Assembly (NCBI GenBank): GCA_003265685.1
Contig: QJOU01000038.1
Coordinates: 1-64,000, forward strand
Source: Piscinibacter caeni
GTDB taxonomy: Bacteria > Pseudomonadota > Gammaproteobacteria > Burkholderiales > Burkholderiaceae_C
Direction of reading: 5' to 3'
DNA length: 64,000 bases
Below the pieces are notes generated by a model that saw only the letters and a list, made by a program, of their open reading frames with translations, was not told the DNA's origin and did no database searches. Each line of letters begins with the position of its first letter. Within the stretch, counting starts at the first letter, position 1. The translations under genes were made by a program, and so were the position numbers. This document shows, piece after piece, positions 10,671 to 22,511 of this stretch.

Positions 10671-12539
<1,869 letters not shown>

Positions 12540-12916
12540 TGCGACTTCGCGTTCAATCGCACTCCTCAGCTTGCAAACCACCTGGAGAGTTCGCTCATAG
12601 GTGAATGGCGTTCACTTTGCATTTCCAGGGCTTTGTGGGCATTTTTTGCATTTCCAAGCTTCCGTGTGAGCGGCGGCGAGCTTTGAATCTTGGCGACCAA
12701 GCGGGCAAGCGGGTGATGTGTGGAAGCCTGGAAGCCTGGGCAAGCAGGGGCCTTCCTTCACGTCCCGCGAGCAAGGGCCTCTCTAGTGACCTGCCGCTCG
12801 GCGAGTTAGCGGGGCACCTCATCGCCGCAAGTAGGCAGCGCGAACCGAGGGACGAGGAGCGCCAAGGCAAGGATGTGCGTTCGAGCCTTCGCAACACGGC
12901 GGGTGAAACTGCTTCT
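12540..12916. other. glmS-proximal junction of the island, with direct repeats
   Basis: 377 bp without a convincing gene. GC content drops compared with glmS. TTTGCATTTCCA occurs twice in direct orientation at 12616-12627 and 12645-12656, and TGTGGGC, the same seven bases that begin the ends of Tn7, lies between them at 12634-12640, about 95 bp after the glmS stop. There is also GTGAA-TGGCG-TTCAC at 12601-12615. This may be the transposon end, but I cannot prove it without the matching far end. Confidence 0.4.
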
Positions 12917-14617
12917 CTATCGAATGTTGGCCAGGAGCTTCCTCGCGAGCACGCGGTTTCTGGGATTCGAAGTCGTCTGCATCTCGGCAAGCAGTCGAGT
13001 GATAGTTATGGAGGCTTTGGAGAGTTGCAAGCGGCTAACGGCCCACTCCACCGTGCGCTCAAAAAACGCACTCCTCTCTTCAATGAACTCGTTCGGATTC
13101 TTTGCTTCTATCACGAGGTGGCGTACGACTCTTGTGGGAATGCCTGTCTCACGTACCAAGTAGTTGATGGTGATCTGGCGCGGCTTTCCTGTCTGCCGCA
13201 TGCCGTTCGCGCGGGCCGCCTTGAGCACATCGACGACGACGTCTGTTTGCCGCTTCTCTTCTGATCTACGCTTCGAGTCCAGCTGGGATACGAACCACGT
13301 TTGGTCACGATGTATCGCGCGAAGAACTGCCTCCTTGCCCCGCGGGCGCAGGGCCGCGCGTCTTCGTACGTCAGGCAAGAGTGCCGCCAGAAGCTCGCGA
13401 TCGGCTCGCACGGACGGAATAGTCCTATTGGCTTCGCGCACATGGTCTCGCCGAGGAACTCGATGGTCCAACCACTCGTAGTCAAGCACTGCTACTGCCC
13501 AGAAAGCGGTGGGCAGAGACCGCCGGAGTGTGAACCAGCGTGCTCCCGGCACTTTCGCTAGGTATTGTTCCAGTCGGTCCTTAGCAACTCCTAACTCCAG
13601 TGCGCAGTTTGCCCTTCGCTGTGCCCTCCCTTCAGGAACCTTGGGCATCACCGATCGACGAGTAGCAACTAGCTTCGCGACCTCATCGAAGTCGAGACCG
13701 ATCCCGACAGCGATCGCGCACAGCACCTTAGGATGCAACGCTGAAAGCGTGACACGGTTCGGTATCGGGTGTGCTGTCGGCTGCGCTTTCGATGCTAAGG
13801 CGACAGAACTGCGGAGCAGCCACTGGAGCCAGACATCGCCGAAGACTCCGCGCAACAGGCGGATGGCTCTGTCGTTCCCAACGCTTGGAGGGAGTTCCAG
13901 CAAGCAGTCGCGCAAGGTACGCGCTAACGCACTCATGGAAAGAGTACCAGGCGTGGCGTCGAGGCAGGCGAACTCAAAGCAAGCGAGCCTATGTAGCGCG
14001 CCAATCTCGGCTGGTGCTGATCCTGAAAGTGTGAGATCCGCGCCGCAGGGGCACCGGGTTGACAACGCGGGCTTCTCACGAGCCGGCACCAGAACGCGTT
14101 GGCACGCGTGGCAATGGGACACCAACATAACCCCGTGAAGATGGCAGACGCTTGTGCCGTGAAGCTGGTGCGCGCGGTGTAGATAGGGCTCTGCATAGCG
14201 GCCCTGGTCCAGACGCAGACAAGTGGGGCATACCTGAAGCTCGACCCGGCGCATGTAGGAGTGCCGGCTAGGTGTCTTGGCCCCCTGACCACGAATCCAT
14301 ATCGGATTCAGTCGATCCTCCGCAACTGTCGACGTGTCGCCTAGTGCTTGGCTGGCGGCGAAGAAGCACTCCCAGTAGCCGCGAGTCGTGAGAGTCGTGG
14401 CGGTGCTCATCGATAGTCGGAACAGACCAAGTAGACGCACGGTCGAGTCCGTATCGTTCGGGTTGTCCATTAGCTGAGGTTCCCAAGCGGCGTGGGTGGT
14501 ACTACCCGCACGCCTTCGGATCGCAGCGAAGTGGTCATATGCATTGAGCGTGGCGACGCGAGGCAAATAGTTGCCGAGCAACTCATCAGGCAACGGTGCG
14601 TCAATGTTTGGGAACAT
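12917..14617 (-). CDS. TniQ/TnsD-family transposon targeting protein
   Basis: A 566-residue protein of the TniQ superfamily, nearer TnsD size (about 500) than short TniQ (300-400). The N-terminus has the PLPDELLGNYLPR motif. A zinc-binding module follows: C130xxC133, C158xxH161 (CHLHGV), C169xxC172 and CPCG at 189-192. A long basic, helical C-terminal half is probably for DNA recognition. TnsD of Tn7 binds the 3' end of glmS and directs insertion just downstream, and this gene is the first one after glmS, pointing toward it. No intact TnsA, TnsB or TnsC is nearby, so it is probably stranded. Codon use is less GC-biased than in flanking core genes. Confidence 0.85.
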   Translation of the reverse strand: MFPNIDAPLPDELLGNYLPRVATLNAYDHFAAIRRRAGSTTHAAWEPQLMDNPNDTDSTVRLLGLFRLSMSTATTLTTRGYWECFFAASQALGDTSTVAEDRLNPIWIRGQGAKTPSRHSYMRRVELQVCPTCLRLDQGRYAEPYLHRAHQLHGTSVCHLHGVMLVSHCHACQRVLVPAREKPALSTRCPCGADLTLSGSAPAEIGALHRLACFEFACLDATPGTLSMSALARTLRDCLLELPPSVGNDRAIRLLRGVFGDVWLQWLLRSSVALASKAQPTAHPIPNRVTLSALHPKVLCAIAVGIGLDFDEVAKLVATRRSVMPKVPEGRAQRRANCALELGVAKDRLEQYLAKVPGARWFTLRRSLPTAFWAVAVLDYEWLDHRVPRRDHVREANRTIPSVRADRELLAALLPDVRRRAALRPRGKEAVLRAIHRDQTWFVSQLDSKRRSEEKRQTDVVVDVLKAARANGMRQTGKPRQITINYLVRETGIPTRVVRHLVIEAKNPNEFIEERSAFFERTVEWAVSRLQLSKASITITRLLAEMQTTSNPRNRVLARKLLANIR

Positions 14618-15117
14618 CGCCCGTGAGGTTGGCTGGTTGGGGCGACGCAGCGTCCCTGCCGTCCCACTTCAACGGCATGACTTGAGGGCGGGGCGTGTGC
14701 GTGCGCGTGTGACGTCTCTGGCTCATCCGCAGTCTAGGGGTGCGGAGAACAGGCCGCTGCTGTTCAGCAGGCACGCAAACTGACCCGCAACGCAAATCCT
14801 TCCTTCAAATGACAAGACTTCCGTCAAACGGAAGAAAACCTGAACTGCAGGCTCCTCGAAGGCCCAGCTTGGGCCTTCAGACGCGAGAGGTGTTGTCGCC
14901 AACTCTCGGGACGGATATAAGTGGCTTCTCGACGTATCGCCGCGCGCCGAAGAACGTTCTGCACGTACGTACGCACATGTTCCCGAAAATTCTTCGTAGG
15001 TAACTACAAGCATGCGCAATCGAGATCGAGTTGTAGAGAATATCTGCGCTTCCATGCGCGAGCTCGCAACGGCGGAGTCGGTGCAGTCGACGCTGATTCA
15101 CTCCTACTAGGCAACTC
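14618..15117. other. 500-bp gap between the two TniQ-type genes, with two tight hairpins
   Basis: No gene is recognised. Two perfect short inverted repeats lie close together: CTTCCGT-CAA-ACGGAAG at 14818-14834 and GAAGGCCCA-GCT-TGGGCCTTC at 14858-14878. Neither is followed by a convincing T run. The gap separates the divergent tniQ genes and should hold their promoters; the hairpins could be terminators of lost genes or relics of an inserted element. Confidence 0.45.
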
Positions 15118-15492
15118 GTGGCGAACAACGTGCTTAGTTCGCTTCGGGCACAGGGAGTCAGTTCTGGTAGCCAAGAATCGGCGGTGATGTGTGTGCGGCG
15201 TGCTGACGAATGGGCGACTAAACATCTAGTGCCCAAGCTGCCAACTATCGTCGAACCACATCTCGATGAAGTGCTTGGATCTTGGCTTGCGCGTCTCTCG
15301 CTCTACAACGGGCCGCGAGTGTGGGACTCCTTCACCAGCCGGGTCGGCTATGGCCGACTGCGTGACGAACTCTTCAATCTCTTCGAGTACAGCAAGAGTG
15401 TCTGCGAACTCTTCGAGGCGCTCGGCACCGACTGGGTAATGGCGAGTAGTCGAAGAGCGCCTCGGCGGCGACTGAGTGCAAGGCTTTCCTGA
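15118..15492 (+). pseudogene. TniQ-family N-terminal fragment
   Basis: An open frame of 124 codons. Residues about 38-75 (LVPKLPTIVEPHLDEVLGSW, then LARLSLYNGPRVWDSF) match the start of TniQ proteins, in which a PxPxExLxSWLxRLA-like motif opens the domain. The frame then runs for about 50 residues without the CxxC zinc module and stops at 15492, where a complete TniQ would need 300 or more residues. It is oriented opposite to the long TniQ/TnsD gene and directly precedes the P-loop gene, the usual tniB/tnsC-tniQ neighbourhood. The true start is unclear (GTG 15118 or internal GTG codons). Confidence 0.55.
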
Positions 15493-15722
15493 CCAATCGA
15501 GAACGCGAGTCCAGAGAATCTTCCTCAAAATGGAAGTTTTCGCGTCTGATGGAAGAATTGCAAGACGGCCTATCCCCGAGAACGGGAAGACAACGCTCAA
15601 AGAGGGAGAGAGACTTCTCGTTCGGCTGCGACTCGGCTATAAGGTTCCGTCTCGATGTGCGAGCACACCTCGATGAACGTTCAGGTAACGCCCGAACGGA
15701 CTCATGCAGAGAAGGAGTCGGA

Positions 15723-16241
15723 ATGAACAACTTGGTCACCAGGCAACTGATCGAAGCTGCGATGCGCAGGAATCCGTTCATCAGCCGGTCTTTAACTGGC
15801 TCTTCCGCGCGAGAAGCATGGGATTCTAGGGCTGGCGGTTTCGCGATCATTGGCCCTACGGGGGCAGGAAAGTCCGCTTTGGTCAAGACTTATCTCGAAT
15901 CGTATTTCACAACTGGACTGCGCGAACACTGGGCCGTAAGCCTCACCTACACCGAAGTGGCACCGCGAACGGCGGTGCTGCTCGTCATCAATCTCTGGGA
16001 CCGGCTGGTCATCGAGATTGCGTGCGATGCCCTGATGCCGGAGTGGCGTGTCGTCGACACCCTCGTGAAGCTTGCCGACCGTCGCGGTAAGCCGCATTCG
16101 ATACTCTTGGACTCGAATATGCTCTGTCAGGATCTTACGGGCTGGGCGAAGCGCAACGACATCGAGCTGCGCCTGCTCGCGTCTGTCTGTCCGGGCATCC
16201 CCGATCCGGCCGAGCGTGCTTTGAGCGGACCTCGACAATGA
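15723..16241 (+). pseudogene. TnsC/TniB-like P-loop ATPase fragment fused to IS3-type transposase debris
   Basis: The ATG at 15723 has a good AAGGAG ribosome-binding site. Residues 1-95 carry a Walker A motif (GPTGAGKS, 44-51) after NPFISR, resembling the AAA+ regulators TniB/TnsC, which bridge transposase and target protein. No Walker B follows. From about residue 98 the sequence instead resembles IS3-family OrfB (EWRVVDTLVKLADRRGKP, then SILLD and GWAKR), but the DNGxE catalytic motif is degenerate (LLDSNM). So an intact translation start leads into a truncated ATPase joined to transposase remains. The IS3 assignment is weaker than the P-loop. Confidence 0.5.
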
Positions 16242-16368
16242 GAAGTCGTGATGGACGCCTCCAATGACGTGGAACGGCGGCACCGGTCCCGAGATTGAGC
16301 ATGCGCCGAGTCATGTACTTCGGCCTAGCTGAGACGAGCGAAGTTGGTTGGTCGAGTAGTCGAACAGA

Positions 16369-16869
16369 ATGAGAACTGCCGGTGGCGATGCCGAACTGTG
16401 GGAGAACTTCGACCCGTCGACGCTGTCCCAGTACGTACGAACGCGGAAACAGATTGGCCGACGCTGGGTGAGCGGAGAGGCCGCTTCGGCGACGCTTGCG
16501 CGCACGGTCGGCGACACCGCAGCCACTTGGCTTTTGGACCAGGTTGAGAGTGATCTCTCGTGGCTGACCGGTGGAGAACTAGTCCCCTCAGCCTGGCGCT
16601 TGTGCGTCCTTCAAAGCTCCAGCTGCTATCTTGTTCCTGCCGTCGCACCGGAATTTCGCCTTCACCGCGACGATCGGCACTTCGACCGCGAAATGTCAGC
16701 AGACGCAGCGGGTCTATGTGCGACACTCTTTTGCCTGAATCGGCTCGGCCACCTCATGGCTGATCAGATGCCGTTTTCTCCGGGGAAGTGGGTCAAGCCA
16801 GAGCGCAAATTTGTTGCGTTCAGCCACCTTCACCCGGAGGCACGAGCGATATGGGCGGTGCTCAACTAG
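16369..16869 (+). CDS. Hypothetical protein, 166 aa
   Basis: I do not recognise it confidently. The middle has ATLARTVGDTAATWLLDQVESDLSW written as helix, then short beta-like stretches (AWRLCVLQSS, YLVPAV). The arrangement vaguely recalls small mobile-element proteins of the DUF6876 sort, but the match is weak. The C-terminus is rich in aromatic and basic residues (GKWVKPERKFVAFSHLH). No signal peptide or membrane segment. It sits between the transposon remnants and a convergent unknown gene, inside the lower-GC island, so it is probably cargo. Confidence 0.5.
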   Translation: MRTAGGDAELWENFDPSTLSQYVRTRKQIGRRWVSGEAASATLARTVGDTAATWLLDQVESDLSWLTGGELVPSAWRLCVLQSSSCYLVPAVAPEFRLHRDDRHFDREMSADAAGLCATLFCLNRLGHLMADQMPFSPGKWVKPERKFVAFSHLHPEARAIWAVLN

Positions 16870-16924: not shown

Positions 16925-17380
16925 TCAGCTCGAAGGCTGCACCGCTTTGATCACGGCGATGGTTGCGAGGTCGGTGATGTGAGAGCCGGCAAGCTGAAGA
17001 AAGGGTCCGCTTAGGACCTGGCCGTCCGTGGTTCGAAATGCGAATGCTGTGCTGCCACCACGGTCCCAGTCGCGGCCTTCCAGAATCTCTGTGATCTGCG
17101 CCGCTTTCCACACCCCAGTTCCACTGCACCAAGCGGGCAGCATGCAGGCAAGCTCGACGAGCGTCCCGCTCTCGTTCTCCCTGGCGGCCGCAACCACGTC
17201 AGAGTCCCAACAGAAGCAGATCGTCGTTCTGGCGAGCTCCTCTCCCGAATCGCTCGCGAAGGTGGCGATGAACCAGGGCAGCTGACCGAACAGCCGCATC
17301 GCTCGCCAATGACCAGCAGTTGGAGAGACGCGAAGGCCCGCGGGAACATCGAATTCGAACTCCGGAAGTGAGACAAACAT
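16925..17380 (-). CDS. Hypothetical protein, 151 aa
   Basis: A cytoplasmic protein with no recognised family. The start ATG at 17380 has a purine-rich stretch (AAGGGAAGA) upstream. Mixed alpha/beta composition is predicted by eye, with two cysteines in TICFCWDSD and a C-terminal helix (ITDLATIAVIKAVQ). It is convergent with the 166-aa gene and divergent from the XRE regulator gene. The palindromic operator at 17401-17420 lies immediately upstream of its start, so it is probably controlled by that regulator. Confidence 0.5.
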   Translation of the reverse strand: MFVSLPEFEFDVPAGLRVSPTAGHWRAMRLFGQLPWFIATFASDSGEELARTTICFCWDSDVVAAARENESGTLVELACMLPAWCSGTGVWKAAQITEILEGRDWDRGGSTAFAFRTTDGQVLSGPFLQLAGSHITDLATIAVIKAVQPSS

Positions 17381-17400
17381 GGCTGGACGATCTTCCCTTG

Positions 17401-17420
17401 CTGGGTTATTAATAACTCAG
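17401..17420. promoter_or_regulatory. 20-bp palindromic operator, XRE-type
   Basis: CTGGGTTATTAATAACTCAG is a palindrome with one mismatched pair; its core GTTATTAATAAC is perfect. It lies between the divergent 151-aa gene and the first XRE gene. A near copy of the core (GTTATAAATAAC) recurs at 17848-17859, before the second XRE gene. This spacing and repetition fit an autoregulatory XRE operator. Confidence 0.6.
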
Positions 17421-17514
17421 AGCACGATCCTCGGTGGGAAGCTTGCGCGTTGCAAGCGCGACGACGCCATCTCCGGGTGTGCGCACCGGGAATGAATTCG
17501 CCTTTCGCATACGC

Positions 17515-17847
17515 GTGAGCACAACGAAGCTTGGCCAGAGGTACGAGGACGCCCGTTCGACGGGGCTCCGCATCGATGTTCTGGGATCCTTGCTTCGTGC
17601 GGCGCGCTACGCAGCGCGTCTACGTCAGGTAGATCTTGCTGAGTGCTTGGGCTTGAGCCAAACGGTTATCAGCAACGTCGAGCGAGGAGCCCGCCCGCTC
17701 AGCGTCATGGAGCTGAGGGATTGGCTTCGTGCGCTTGGAGTCGACTTTGTTCAGTTCGCTGACCGGCTGGATAGATCGTTGACCGATGGGCCGGCGAGCC
17801 CGGTTGCGGCTGCCCGGCCGGTAGCCAAGAGGCGACGAAAGCTTTGA
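17515..17847 (+). CDS. XRE-family helix-turn-helix regulator (first)
   Basis: About 110 residues from GTG at 17515; an earlier in-frame GTG at 17434 would add 27 residues that do not look like part of the fold. The HTH_XRE domain covers about residues 22-80 (LGSLLRAARYAARLRQVDLAECLGLSQ, then TVISNVERGARPL). A basic tail KRRRKL follows. It is preceded by the 20-bp palindrome and followed by its near copy, suggesting autoregulation and control of the second XRE gene 49 bp downstream. It is probably a repressor of island functions. Confidence 0.75.
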   Translation: MSTTKLGQRYEDARSTGLRIDVLGSLLRAARYAARLRQVDLAECLGLSQTVISNVERGARPLSVMELRDWLRALGVDFVQFADRLDRSLTDGPASPVAAARPVAKRRRKL

Positions 17848-17859
17848 GTTATAAATAAC
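17848..17859. promoter_or_regulatory. Second XRE operator-like site
   Basis: GTTATAAATAAC matches the perfect core palindrome GTTATTAATAAC at 17405-17416 in 11 of 12 positions. It lies just after the first XRE gene (the overlap with its stop codon is at the boundary) and 38 bp before the second XRE gene. Confidence 0.5.
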
Positions 17860-17896
17860 GTGGTGCCAGAAGGACGAAGCATGGACGCTCGCCTGG

Positions 17897-18187
17897 ATGG
17901 CAATCCGGCGGCGAACGACTCTTCCTCGTGGGCGACCCAAGGGCGCACTAAGCTTCGATGCGGAAGTCGCACAAGCATTTGGCGGCGTCTTGAGGAAGGC
18001 GCGTGTAGCTGCCGAGATGTCGCAGGAGGCCCTCGCCCACTTGTCACGGGTGGAGAGGTCGTATCTTGGTCGGATCGAGCGAGGACAAAGTCAACCGACG
18101 TTGCTTGTGATCCTCAAGGTTGCCGCTGCCCTGGGATGGGATGGAGCCATGTTGGTGGCCGCTACGGAGGACGCGATGAAGTCGTGA
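17897..18187 (+). CDS. XRE-family helix-turn-helix regulator (second)
   Basis: A 96-residue protein. An N-terminal basic arm (MAIRRRTTLPRGRPKG) precedes an HTH_XRE domain (about residues 25-85: FGGVLRKARVAAEMSQEALA, then RVERSYLGRIERGQSQPTL). The last part resembles the short regulators of integrative elements and controller proteins. It is the second of two tandem XRE genes and shares an operator motif with the first. No sensor domain is present. It is likely a repressor of the downstream antitoxin-like pair or the integrase. Confidence 0.8.
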   Translation: MAIRRRTTLPRGRPKGALSFDAEVAQAFGGVLRKARVAAEMSQEALAHLSRVERSYLGRIERGQSQPTLLVILKVAAALGWDGAMLVAATEDAMKS

Positions 18188-18257
18188 GCCACGTCTCTGG
18201 GAGATGATCGCCTCGTCCGTGTGTCGAGCACCGCGACACGTTCACAGGAGAGTGACA

Positions 18258-18431
18258 GTGGCGCAAGACCTACATGCGATGCAGGGCGACGATCAAGGCG
18301 CAGTGTTGTCGCCTGAAGAATTGGAGGAGCTTGAGGCAGCCCTTGCCGACGACCAGGCGGGCAACGTAGTCGCGGGCGAAGAGTTCCTCCGCGGCCTTCG
18401 CGCATCACTAGACCCATCTGCGGCAGGATGA
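18258..18431 (+). CDS. Small acidic protein, 57 aa, partner of the ParS/MbcA-like gene
   Basis: GTG start with CAGGAGAG six bases upstream. The product is short and acidic: after ten residues comes SPEELEELEAALADDQAG and then EEFLRGLRASLDP, predicted to be two helices. Its stop overlaps the next start as ATGA. The pattern resembles antidote or ribbon-helix-helix-free addiction-module components, but I do not recognise a family. The overlap shows it is co-translated with the DUF2384-type gene. Confidence 0.55.
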   Translation: MAQDLHAMQGDDQGAVLSPEELEELEAALADDQAGNVVAGEEFLRGLRASLDPSAAG

Positions 18432-18724
18432 GCTCGCCCGACGCTTTCTTCGGGGCAACCAACGAAGCGCTCAGGCGCTACAGTGCGCGCATGCAGCCGA
18501 CCGATGTGCCCGATGTTTCCGCGCTGGTGGCGCTCGTCGGGCGGGTCGTGGTCGAAAGTGGCGGTCCGGCAGGCTTCGACGCGCATGCCTGGACTACCCG
18601 CTGGCTTTCTAGGCCGGCGCCTGCCCTTGGCGGGAAGCGCCCGATGGAGTACATGGGAACTCCCGAAGGCAGGGCGCTTCTCGCAACGTTAGTCATGCGG
18701 ATGCAGTCGGGCGCGTACACCTGA
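18428..18724 (+). CDS. MbcA/ParS/Xre-type antitoxin (DUF2384-like)
   Basis: A 98-residue protein. The C-terminal 50 residues (WLSRPAPALGGKRPMEYMGT, then EGRALLATLVMRMQSGAYT) match the toxin-binding domain of MbcA/ParS/Xre antitoxins, in which LGGxxPxxxLxTxEG is diagnostic. In known systems the partner toxin is a RES-domain NAD+ phosphorylase or ADP-ribosyltransferase encoded just downstream. No RES gene follows here; the next gene is the integrase 270 bp away. The N-terminal helices lack a clear helix-turn-helix. It overlaps the 57-aa gene by 4 bp. Confidence 0.7.
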   Translation: MSSPDAFFGATNEALRRYSARMQPTDVPDVSALVALVGRVVVESGGPAGFDAHAWTTRWLSRPAPALGGKRPMEYMGTPEGRALLATLVMRMQSGAYT

Positions 18725-18944
18725 CCCGCGTGCATCTCGCGGCCCCTCAACACAGTGCGAGCGGGGTTGGAGAGGCTGCCGCCCAGTCCCGGAGTTCGAG
18801 CAGATCGCGACACGGTTCGACTACCGGCGCGTCCCCGGGTGTTAATTTGCAGAGCGATTGGCATCGACACATGGCTGCGCGTGCCGAGCCTCCCATCCAA
18901 GCGACCAAGACCCTCACGAAGCACATCGCGCTAAGCGTGCTATC

Positions 18945-18964
18945 GCGATAACTATTGTTATCGC
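18945..18964. promoter_or_regulatory. Perfect 8-bp inverted repeat upstream of the integrase
   Basis: GCGATAAC-TATT-GTTATCGC is a perfect inverted repeat ending 33 bp before the integrase ATG. The half-site GTTAT is the one found in the XRE operators at 17405 and 17848, but arranged outward instead of inward. It may be an operator through which the island's XRE proteins control the integrase. Confidence 0.5.
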
Positions 18965-18996
18965 ACTACCCACTTCAAACCGCTAAACTGGCAGCC

Positions 18997-20682
18997 ATGA
19001 AATCCGCGCAGGCGCTCGCACTGGTCGCCCCAGGCGAGGAGGGCTTCCCGTCGGCGGACGAACTTGCCGCCCTGCGCGCCTGGTATGCGGGTTTGACGGC
19101 GCGCGAATCGGTCCAGCGGTACCTCGGTCGGCAAAAGGCCAGCGGGCAGTCGTCGCGCTCGATGCTGTCGAACGTGCGACGGAAGCTGGCGCGGCATGCT
19201 CGGGCTCGCCAGCGCGATGACTTGGCGGAGGTCTTCGAACATGAGGCTGCTGATCGCCTGGGGCGTGCTCGCAGCGCCGTGCACACGATCGAGGTCCTCC
19301 GGCACTTGCCGGTGCCGCAGCCCGCGATCTCAGATGCAGTGGCGGCATGGCTGCCTGCGCGCGTATCGGCGGCGTTGAAGCGAGCCGGGATCGAGTCACT
19401 CGCCGACCTGACAGTTCGTGTGCCGCGACGTCGACAGTGGTGGACTGCTGTCCCCGGTCTGGGAGTGACCGCGGCGCGACAGGTCGAAGCGTTCTTCGCC
19501 CGCTACCCCGATCTGACCGCGCGTGCTCAAGCACTCATCAAGGCATCGGCTCCGGTCCTGAGACCGTGGGAGCAGTTTGTCGTTCCAACGGATATCGACG
19601 GATCGAGTGGCACGTTTCGGGCCCCCAGGGCTACCTGCGCACTCGATGCGAACAACGACTTCTCTGCAGTGGAAGCGTGGCTGACGCTCCAGGAGTCACC
19701 GGCGACGCAGCGCGCCTATCGGAAGGAGGCGGAGCGGCTGATGCTATGGGCGATCCATGAGCGGGACCGGGCATTGTCGTCTCTGACGACTGAAGATGCG
19801 ATCGCGTACCGGGCCTTTCTACGCAAGCCCATGCCCCGCGACAGATGGGTCGGGCCGGCGCGTCCGCGTTCGTCGCCAGAGTGGCGACCTTTCGCCGCTC
19901 CGTTGTCGGCTAGGTCGGTGGCGTACGCGCTGTCGGTGCTCGGCGCGCTGTACCGCTGGCTGATCGAGCAACGCTACCTGTTGGCCAATCCGTTCGCTGG
20001 GATCAAAGTCAAAGGGGGTAAGCAAGGTGCCCCGCTCGACGCACAGCGAGGGTTCTCGACCTATGAATGGTCACTCGTCCGCGAGGCCGCGGAGCACCTG
20101 GAGTGGACTGATGACTGGAGCGAGTCGGCAGCTCAGCGCCTGCGGTTCCTGCTGGACTTTTGGCGTGCAACGGGACTGCGACCAAGCGAGATGGTGGGAG
20201 CCAACCTGGGGCACATCCGGCGTGACGACCACGGGGATGACTGGGTTCACGTGCTTGGGAAGGGACACAAGGAAGGGGATGTTGCGATCCCTCTTTCGGC
20301 CATCGGTGCGCTCGAGCGGTACCTCTCGCAGCGGGGCCTGCCAACGACGCGTACACGCTGGCACCCCAACACGCCGCTCGTCCCTTCGCTTGAGGGTGAG
20401 GGCGGGATCACGGCACCTCGTGTCTGGGCGGTATTCCGCCGATTCTTTAGTCAGGCCGCGCAGCATCTTCAGGAGGCGGCACCCGGCACCGCGCAGAAGT
20501 TGCTTCGAGCAACACCGCATTGGCTTCGACATACGCATGCGACACACGCACTGGAGGCCGGCGCCGAGTTGACAACCGTGAGGGACAACTTACGGCATGC
20601 GTCTGTGGCCACGACGTCGGTGTACCTCCATACGGATCAGGCGCGACGATCTCGTCAGATGAGAGAGGCGTTTCCCGCGTAG
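18997..20682 (+). CDS. Tyrosine recombinase/integrase with DUF3701 N-terminal domain
   Basis: A 561-residue phage-type integrase from ATG 18997. The N-terminal ~95 residues (APGEEGFPSADELAALRAWY, then YLGRQKASGQSSRSML) are the DUF3701 domain typical of a group of large integrases on betaproteobacterial islands. A core-binding SAM-like domain follows (about 225-335) and then the catalytic domain: arginine in ATGLRPSEM, HxxR in HWLRHTHATH, second histidine in LRHASVATTS and tyrosine in TTSVYLHTD. All catalytic residues are present, so it may be active. It belongs to the island; no att duplication was identified. Confidence 0.88.
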   Translation: MKSAQALALVAPGEEGFPSADELAALRAWYAGLTARESVQRYLGRQKASGQSSRSMLSNVRRKLARHARARQRDDLAEVFEHEAADRLGRARSAVHTIEVLRHLPVPQPAISDAVAAWLPARVSAALKRAGIESLADLTVRVPRRRQWWTAVPGLGVTAARQVEAFFARYPDLTARAQALIKASAPVLRPWEQFVVPTDIDGSSGTFRAPRATCALDANNDFSAVEAWLTLQESPATQRAYRKEAERLMLWAIHERDRALSSLTTEDAIAYRAFLRKPMPRDRWVGPARPRSSPEWRPFAAPLSARSVAYALSVLGALYRWLIEQRYLLANPFAGIKVKGGKQGAPLDAQRGFSTYEWSLVREAAEHLEWTDDWSESAAQRLRFLLDFWRATGLRPSEMVGANLGHIRRDDHGDDWVHVLGKGHKEGDVAIPLSAIGALERYLSQRGLPTTRTRWHPNTPLVPSLEGEGGITAPRVWAVFRRFFSQAAQHLQEAAPGTAQKLLRATPHWLRHTHATHALEAGAELTTVRDNLRHASVATTSVYLHTDQARRSRQMREAFPA

Positions 20683-20897: not shown

Positions 20898-22511
20898 GAG
20901 GCTGTGTGAGAACTCGCTGACCCAAGCATTTGGAACGGCCACTGCGGCGAGGGCCGCGGCCGCACAGCGCGTTGAGTTCTGGGCGAAGGGCCTTCGCCCT
21001 ACGCCCTCATCGCTGCCATCAGCGGCCCGGCGCCGAGGATCTTGATCGTCCGCTTCAGGTTGTAGGCCAGAACCTGCAAGCTCATCTCGGTTCGCACCCG
21101 CGGCATTGTCTTGGTCAGGAAGTGACTCGGCCCCATCCAGGCCTTGAGCGTTCCGAACACGTGCTCGACGGTCTGTCTTCGCAGCTTCATGGCCTCAGGG
21201 GCACCCTCCAGCCGCTGTTGAACGACATCCAGGATGTCTTCGTGCTCCCAGCGAGCGATGCGCCGGTACTTGCCCTTCGTGCACCGCGGCTTCATCGGGC
21301 ACTGCGGACAGTCTGAGGACCAATACTTGTGCTGGGTCTTGCCCGCTTCCTCTGTGGTGAAGCGGTAAATCGCGATCTTCCCGGCGGGACACCGGTACTC
21401 GTCGTTCTTGGCGTCGTACACGAAGTCCCGCTTATCGAAGAGACCTTCGGCCAGGTTGTTCGAGGTCATGGGCTTGGGCACGACAGCGGCCACACCCGCA
21501 CGCTCGCACTCCAGGATCTCGTAGCCTTCGTAGTAGCCGCGATCGGCCAGCGCGATCAGTTCGTCTTCCCCAGCGGCCGCCTTGGCTAGCTTGGCCATAC
21601 CGGCGAGCTGGTCCCGGTCGTGGCCTACGTTGGTCACCTCGTGGGCCACGATGAGGTGGTGCTTGGCATCGACTGCAGCTTGAACGTTGTAGCCCACGAT
21701 GCCCGTGCCTCGACCGCTGGTGGCCATCGAGCGTGCGTCGGGGTCGGTCAGGGAGATCTGCCCATCCTCGGACGCCTTCATCTGCTCACCGATCGCCTCC
21801 AGCGCCTGCATCTGCTGTTTGACCTTGGCGATCTTGTCCTTGAGGTGAGCGACCCGGCCGGGCAACACAGCGGTTGCGTCGCGGTCGGCGCGATCGAGCT
21901 CGACCAGGTAGCGCTTGATGCTGTCCTCGAGCTGCTCGATGCGGGCTTGCAGCTTGCGGTCGGTGAAGTTCTTGTCGCGGTTGTTGACCGCCTTGAACTT
22001 GCTGCCGTCGATGGCGACGATGCCGTCGGTGAAGAGCTTCATCCGGCGGCACAGCAGCACGAACTCCTTGCAGACCTTGCAGACCTTGCGGATCGCCTCG
22101 CCGTTGTCGCGGCGGAAGTCAGCGATCGTCTTGAAGTCCGGTGCCAGACGCCCGGTGAGCCAGATCAACTCGAGGTTGCGTTGCGATTCGGTCTCCAGGC
22201 GGCGGCTGGACTGCACGCGGTTGAGATAGCCGTAGACGTAGATCTTGAGCAGGGTCGCCGGGCCGTACCCGGGCCGGCCCGTTGCAGCCGGATAAGCGCG
22301 CTCGAAGCCCAGCTTCCTCAGATCGAGCTCATCGACGAAGACATCGATGACGCGGACTGTGCTGTCCTCGTGGATCCAGTCATCGCGTCGCTCGGGGAAG
22401 AGCGCGCTCTGCGTTCGATCCTGCCCTTCGACGTACCGTCCCATCGATCACTCCCGCCGGTCTGACGGGCGCTATGACATCGGTCGAGGCAAAGAGTTTC
22501 CACACGGCCTC
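20898..22511. mobile_element. Complete IS1182-family insertion sequence
   Basis: A 1614-bp element bounded by imperfect terminal inverted repeats: GAGGCTGTGTGAGAACTC on the left and, read inward from the right, GAGGCCGTGTGGAAACTC (15 of 18 identical). GACC flanks both ends (20894-20897 and 22512-22515), a 4-bp target duplication. It contains one intact transposase gene, so it is probably a recent, potentially mobile insertion. Confidence 0.85.
20999..22444 (-). CDS. IS1182-family transposase
   Basis: A 481-residue DDE transposase, full length for the family. The N-terminal DUF772 domain has the GYGPATLLKIYVYGYLN segment. The catalytic core includes VAIDGSKFKAVN (first aspartate), ALADRGYYEG (second) and the TVEHVFGTLKAWMG region (glutamate). 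A cysteine cluster (CPQCPMKPRCTKGK) near residue 380 is also typical. No frameshift or internal stop. A shorter relative of the same family survives as a remnant at 52445-52803. Confidence 0.93.
   Translation of the reverse strand: MGRYVEGQDRTQSALFPERRDDWIHEDSTVRVIDVFVDELDLRKLGFERAYPAATGRPGYGPATLLKIYVYGYLNRVQSSRRLETESQRNLELIWLTGRLAPDFKTIADFRRDNGEAIRKVCKVCKEFVLLCRRMKLFTDGIVAIDGSKFKAVNNRDKNFTDRKLQARIEQLEDSIKRYLVELDRADRDATAVLPGRVAHLKDKIAKVKQQMQALEAIGEQMKASEDGQISLTDPDARSMATSGRGTGIVGYNVQAAVDAKHHLIVAHEVTNVGHDRDQLAGMAKLAKAAAGEDELIALADRGYYEGYEILECERAGVAAVVPKPMTSNNLAEGLFDKRDFVYDAKNDEYRCPAGKIAIYRFTTEEAGKTQHKYWSSDCPQCPMKPRCTKGKYRRIARWEHEDILDVVQQRLEGAPEAMKLRRQTVEHVFGTLKAWMGPSHFLTKTMPRVRTEMSLQVLAYNLKRTIKILGAGPLMAAMRA

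Follow-up and report, generated by a model that had tools for sequence, protein, structure and literature searches.

Tn7, in its TnsD pathway, uses the site after glmS; in Escherichia coli, the final 36 bp of this gene form the TnsD site, as stated in the consulted part of PMC2918618. Elements with two selector proteins are also on record. Faure et al. (2023; PMC10293859, consulted in part) reported tandem tniQ/tnsD genes near tnsC at 1,048 loci, in which one protein usually exceeds 400 amino acids (aa) and the second is substantially smaller, as well as the Tsy transposon, which combines a tyrosine recombinase with TnsF. In the I-B, I-D, and I-F3 clustered regularly interspaced short palindromic repeat (CRISPR)-associated transposons (CASTs), as far as they are covered in the consulted sections of PMC11406308, one protein-guided homing factor is accompanied by a second TniQ. 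Here we analysed a TniQ gene that directly follows glmS in Piscinibacter caeni (GCA_003265685.1). The window, that is, the whole stretch of DNA analysed, covers positions 1 to 64,000 of contig C25 (QJOU01000038.1, 71.7 kb) in a draft genome of 6.87 Mb and 310 contigs, and the comparison set consisted of 60 genomes (its own and 59 relatives). The two genes at the centre of the analysis are as follows.

10671..12539, + strand: glmS, the attachment-site gene, with SIS and GATase domains and matching the glmS of relatives
12917..14617, − strand: intact gene for a 566-aa protein of the TniQ2 clade, facing glmS, assigned from Pfam TniQ, its place in the tree, the lack of a TnsD domain and a fold match

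The window probably represents the glmS-facing end of a dual-TniQ Tn7-like element whose far core reads toward glmS, the 566-aa protein (TniQ2) being a second selector beside a TnsD-domain protein (TniQ1). This family resembles the Tn7/TnsD pathway in the site after glmS, in the combination of TnsA, TnsB, and TnsC with a TnsD-domain protein, in a Cys-Cys-Cys-His (CCCH) zinc motif, and in the short repeats found at both ends in relatives. It is unlike that pathway in that the window protein has no TnsD domain and the core of the family is far from glmS, reading toward it. Unlike in Tn7, no TnsE was found in the 7 of 10 called open reading frames (ORFs) of the Dyella cargo that were tested.

With the dual loci of PMC10293859, as they are described in the part consulted, the family shares two TniQ/TnsD proteins per element, but here both are 544–657 aa long, and in the window, in genome G001, and in a groundwater Burkholderiales metagenome-assembled genome (MAG; G430) the second TniQ lies toward glmS, at a distance from tnsC. 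CASTs likewise pair a homing factor with a second TniQ, and among the CAST TniQ models of PADLOC, the strongest match to the window protein has E = 8.7e-14, others being weaker. However, the TniQ of CASTs, according to the same sections of PMC11406308, acts with Cas proteins, and TniQ2 has a long C-terminal part. Cas families had no match in 9 ORFs of the island or 7 Dyella cargo ORFs, the other cargo being judged by eye and the rest of the contig not scanned. The Tsy transposon, as presented in the part of PMC10293859 consulted, is similar in having a tyrosine recombinase and a helix-turn-helix (HTH) gene near the target selector, but in the window a TniQ takes the place of the selector, and the recombinase belongs to a type common on plasmids. 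A literature search, whose coverage mostly excluded subscription papers, found no description of a long, CRISPR-free second TniQ at a glmS-facing end.

A TniQ protein encoded beside glmS

The G+C content falls from 0.69–0.77 at 1–12 kb to 0.56–0.63 at 13–19 kb, dropping after the end of glmS (12539), and the low-G+C island begins past the glmS stop codon, as expected for an insertion directly downstream of this gene. The TniQ gene is convergent with glmS, with 377 bp from stop to stop. Pfam TniQ (PF06527) matches residues 7–165 of the protein with E = 3.6e-13, and the CCCH set C130, C133, C158, and H161, expected of a TniQ-family protein, is invariant in all 8 aligned TniQ2 proteins. Its spacing is like that of C124, C127, C152, and H155 in E. 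coli TnsD, as these are given in the consulted part of PMC2918618. The G+C drop and the TniQ gene with a CCCH module, both noted in a preliminary description of this DNA, are therefore borne out.

The same description had taken the protein for a TnsD, which the domain searches contradict. Pfam TnsD (PF15978) gave no match to the 566-aa protein even at E ≤ 1 and matched none of 7 TniQ2 proteins (those of the window, G204, G001, and G321, a Burkholderiales MAG, at E ≤ 1; those of Dyella, Dechloromonas, and G430 at E ≤ 0.1). By contrast, all 5 TniQ1 proteins tested match it (E = 3.5e-19 to 4.7e-52). In the tree, the window protein falls in a TniQ2 clade of 10 members (support 100/100), as sister to the protein of G321 (98/95), whereas TniQ1 forms a separate clade of 9 (98/97) and falls, at a 100/100 split, on the side that also holds the TniQ/TnsD proteins of other glmS elements. 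The inner order of the tree is unsure because the branches are long. By domain content and phylogeny, the 566-aa protein is thus assigned to a distinct TniQ clade, TniQ2, and not to TnsD. The long C-terminus had been taken as a hint of a distinct targeting subtype; the protein does fall in a distinct clade, but its length is ordinary there (544–592 aa). The relatives were recovered by a contig scan with an alignment, and a single-protein scan found none.

A structure of TniQ2 predicted from 8 sequences (mean predicted local distance difference test score of 69.7) had as its top Foldseek match the TnsD-TnsC-DNA complex 8v32 (E = 7.8e-4, probability 1.00), with a template-modelling score of only 0.29–0.35. 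The twelve rows after it were likewise TniQ or TnsD complexes, and a sequence search against solved structures matched the window protein to a TniQ chain (E = 0.0011). Among plasmids, the window TniQ had no match, and the Dyella and Dechloromonas TniQ2 proteins each had one near-full-length match, in the same Burkholderia cenocepacia record. On this large replicon (L213 11992-13710), the gene of the TniQ2 relative is broken into two ORFs, and the search for the queried core genes within 12 kb of it found none.

Dual-TniQ elements and the site after glmS

Genes for TnsA, TnsB, and TnsC with two TniQ proteins occur in Dyella, Dechloromonas, Methylotenera, Cupriavidus necator, G430, and G204. G001 has TnsB, TnsC, and two TniQ genes, with TnsA not detected, and a 4.4-kb Herminiimonas contig shows just the two TniQ genes. 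TniQ1 is present in the same element or contig for 8 of the 10 TniQ2 genes, the exceptions being that of the window and that of G321, whose contig is short. Except for Herminiimonas, which is unplaceable, the genes could be located relative to glmS, and seven of these nine lie downstream of it on the same contig, 0.2–63 kb away.

The clearest layout is that of G430, in which glmS is followed after 236 bp by a TniQ2 gene facing it, ~32 kb of cargo, and the genes TniQ1-TnsC-TnsB-TnsA. This core is at the far end, 34–40 kb away, and reads toward glmS; the sequence TTATGGATAATT is present in two copies after glmS and in one inverted copy 27 bp past TnsA. In G001, TniQ2 is 6.7 kb and the core ~41–46 kb past glmS, and the far core of Dyella, Methylotenera, and G204 is accompanied by both TniQ genes. 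Some members have their TniQ2 gene at the glmS-facing end. In all five placed dual-TniQ elements (G430, Dyella, Methylotenera, G204, and G001), the core reads toward glmS. TnsA is the first core gene after glmS, with the core reading away from it, in all 13 other loci that hold glmS and TnsA; these loci end 10 kb beyond the TniQ match and would not reveal a distant arrangement. L160, with a weak glmS-like match and no TnsA, was left out of this count. Because G430 is intact and has the same layout with the core at its far end, a lone TniQ next to glmS can be a normal glmS-facing element end.

In all 18 loci compared, DNA similarity of relatives across glmS ceases within 12 bp of the stop codon, with a separate short match further on in two (110 and 188 bp). 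Direct A+T-rich repeats of the Tn7-end type follow soon after the stop codon in 6 of 17 loci, as judged by eye, G001 having a different set. In the 60 genomes, 17 of 29 TniQ matches share a contig with glmS; ten, from 6 genomes, are within 60 kb downstream of it and one within 60 kb upstream. Simple arithmetic for ~4.5-Mb genomes gives a chance expectation of well under one, with matches from the same genome not independent. Because similarity ends near the stop codon in all of the loci compared, Tn7-type end repeats recur there, and TniQ matches lie downstream of it, glmS is a hot spot for Tn7-like elements in these genomes. Second, divergent glmS copies, mostly 62–65% identical, were seen in G003 (contig C8:147447-148765, L097) and G006 (contig C38:3-1775, L098); that of G003 is in pieces at a contig end, with TniQ genes 13–15 kb downstream.

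Two candidate sets of transposon ends were found in the island.

12616..12656, + strand: candidate for the transposon end that faces glmS (TnsB sites), with identical copies of TTTGCATTTCCA at 12616 and 12645, 29 bp apart
14777..14842, no single strand: tentative abutting transposon ends (14777-14798 minus, 14799-14833 plus), from a weight matrix and likeness by eye

The TTTGCATTTCCA copies are the only ones in the 71.7 kb at up to one mismatch. An exact 12-mer repeat of this length was reached in 51 of 20000 Markov simulations, the segment having been chosen after the fact. The 14777 site has the best weight-matrix score of the contig (12.9), but it is not significant because its score on island composition, 11.3, lies under the 95% level of 14.3 in shuffled islands; by eye, 14777-14842 tentatively resembles the far end of G430. 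Also by eye, TTTGTGGGCATTTTTTGCATTTCC of the window (12540-12700) looks like TTGCGGGTCTTTTTTGCATTGCT at the G204 end after glmS (L113).

Core genes and competing explanations

On contig C11 of the same genome, TnsA, TnsB, TnsC, and a TniQ1 that carries a TnsD domain are encoded by open frames. TnsA was identified there by comparison with relatives, the Pfam TnsA search of the genome being silent, as it was for the controls. By Pfam, the genome has only two TniQ-domain genes, TniQ2 on C25 and TniQ1 on C11. A family-type end next to the C11 core scored best, at 17.3, at C11:47067, with C11 excluded from the matrix and no shuffle control. By eye, the end of the TnsABC-TniQ1 element is adjoined, at 4007-4095 of L009 (C11), by a Tn7-type end similar to the glmS-side ones of G006 and G003; the two are about a dozen bp apart and face in opposite directions, which gives the impression of Tn7-like insertions stacked at a site other than glmS. 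The preliminary description had proposed that the core transposase genes were lost and had suggested a search for TnsA and TnsB elsewhere in the genome. Since TnsA, TnsB, and TnsC are present on C11 with a TnsD-domain TniQ, a Tn7-like core is not lost genome-wide, and in G430 the core lies 34–40 kb away. The window copy may nevertheless have lost its own, because the 59 kb after glmS contain no core beyond a TnsC fragment.

In the element that we favour, a TnsA-TnsB-TnsC-TniQ1/TnsD core would sit at the end distant from glmS and read toward it, and TniQ1, through its TnsD domain, would have brought the element to glmS. TniQ2 would recruit TnsC via its N-terminal TniQ module, and its C-terminal half would choose another target, perhaps mobile DNA, a route that may correspond to the second pathway served in Tn7 by TnsE. 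That the halves are apart in this genome might reflect a rearrangement, or the C11 core might be a separate copy, perhaps acting in trans. A fuller version, in which TniQ2 is a CRISPR-independent selector that finds its own target by its long C-terminal extension, the family has two protein-guided pathways, and selector and core act here in trans from separate loci, seems to us speculative and, as a whole, unlikely. If it were true, this long CRISPR-free second TniQ would add a module to protein-guided targeting that might serve site-specific insertion. It is easy to take a TniQ gene next to glmS for TnsD or for a wrecked Tn7 element, but where a relative shows this layout, the gene lies at one end of an element with the transposase tens of kilobases off; surveys that look only beside tnsC would therefore miss a second selector.

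Several observations weigh against the favoured element. TnsA, TnsB, and intact TnsC are all missing from the 59 kb after glmS on the window contig. Short blastn matches (39–105 bp) are all that C25 and C11 share, so that linkage of the two contigs was not shown. Synteny gave only scattered matches for 22–41.9 kb of the window against 20 genomes and for 43.0–62.9 kb of C11 against 9 genomes, and consequently neither an empty site nor a C25-C11 link could be demonstrated; for the window island, neither a right boundary nor a target duplication was found. The family weight matrix, built from 15 end sites of relatives, scores ≤0.0 throughout 12540-12739 (shuffle mean 2.0) and thus does not recognize the candidate repeats at 12616 and 12645. 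The window TniQ is on a long branch, among those flagged, and the assembly, with its 310 contigs, has 2.8% contamination. Furthermore, TniQ2 elements of Dechloromonas (on another contig) and C. necator (on another replicon) are away from glmS. The preliminary description had regarded such loci, or the lack of an empty-site genome, as speaking against an insertion here, and its case is weakened to that extent.

The strongest alternative is that the window holds a degraded Tn7-like insertion whose own TnsABC genes were deleted, the C11 core belonging to an unrelated second element at another site. We regard this as a substantial possibility, somewhat short of an even chance; it overlaps the favoured reading, in which C11 may also be a separate copy, and the two likelihoods are therefore not to be added. 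It draws on a stretch downstream of TniQ2 with two truncated genes.

15118..15492, + strand: ORF with the truncated N-terminus of another TniQ2 gene (residues 40-105), recognized by the TniQ2 profile
15549..16241, + strand: ORF with a short TnsC-type P-loop (residues 72-119), recognized by the TnsC profile, followed by an IS3-type transposase remnant (weak rve/IS3 matches)

The second TniQ fragment, recognized as such in the preliminary description, was confirmed by the TniQ2 profile (45.7 bits, E = 1e-13 among 630 contig ORFs, profile positions 4-70); its Pfam match, E = 0.0083, did not reach the cut-off. The TnsC/TniB-like P-loop proposed there is acceptable at 18.9 bits (E = 1.7e-5 among 630 ORFs; the runner-up ORF scored 5.7 bits), but the match is weak and short (48 aa), and the later part of the ORF is IS3-like (rve, E = 0.019, which did not reach the cut-off; one IS3 match, E = 7e-3). 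Thus, 15.1–16.2 kb is decayed and contains a TniQ2 N-terminus, a TnsC-type P-loop, and IS3-type debris. The view of the region as partly decayed Tn7-like DNA at glmS stands, but without a classical TnsD. The 59 kb without a core and the IS3 and IS1182 sequences of the island also speak for degradation, and C11 has its own end motif beside a second, different Tn7-type end. Against it, the intact TniQ2 gene next to glmS matches the G430 layout, and the genome has just the two TniQ-domain genes expected of one split pair.

TniQ2 might instead be the glmS-binding homing protein of the family. It is encoded by the first gene past glmS in the window, G321, and G430, and the position of most placeable TniQ2 genes downstream of glmS would fit this role. 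We consider it doubtful, however, since the TnsD domain is in TniQ1, which groups with the TniQ/TnsD proteins of other glmS elements, and TniQ2 is also found away from glmS.

Cargo of the island

Downstream of the decayed stretch, the island contains the following genes.

16369..16869, + strand: antirestriction protein (cargo; Pfam Antirestrict, E = 7.5e-13)
16925..17380, − strand: protein without a Pfam match, common to the glmS island of G321 (phmmer E = 1.1e-15; 31% identity)
17434..18187, + strand: two HTH regulators (17434-17847 and 17897-18187; Pfam), both with homologues in the G321 island
18428..18724, + strand: protein with an Xre/MbcA/ParS antitoxin C-terminal domain (Pfam E = 2.5e-10)
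18955..20682, + strand: DUF3701 tyrosine recombinase of a plasmid-common type, likely cargo (Pfam)
20999..22444, − strand: IS1182 transposase, close to what appears to be the right edge of the low-G+C island (NCBIfam E = 5.9e-130; G+C profile)

The region at 16.4–22.4 kb is cargo-like, with its antirestriction protein, HTH regulators, antitoxin-domain protein, plasmid-type recombinase, and IS1182 transposase. Cargo of Tn7-like elements often holds insertion sequence (IS) elements, IS3 foremost, according to the consulted part of PMC8649781. A terminal-repeat search around the IS1182 copy gave 9-bp matches only. The DUF3701 recombinase matches 3190 plasmid records, in 1174 cases along ≥80% of its length. 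Because the 16925 protein, the two HTH regulators, and this recombinase (window 16925-20682) recur beside TniQ2 in the glmS island of G321 (L130 11641-14029), which belongs to another genus, TniQ2 and the recombinase could be imagined to act together as an integrative element that needs no TnsABC, mirroring the Tsy transposon, but this is highly improbable given that the recombinase type is common on plasmids, that the other TniQ2 loci examined have no match to it, and that the two islands do not agree in the order and strands of their genes.

In Dyella (L199), the cargo looks defence-rich, with a methyl-directed restriction enzyme, a DNA methylase, Vsr, HerA, and AIPR, and that of G430 (L201-L203) gives the same impression, judged by eye alone.

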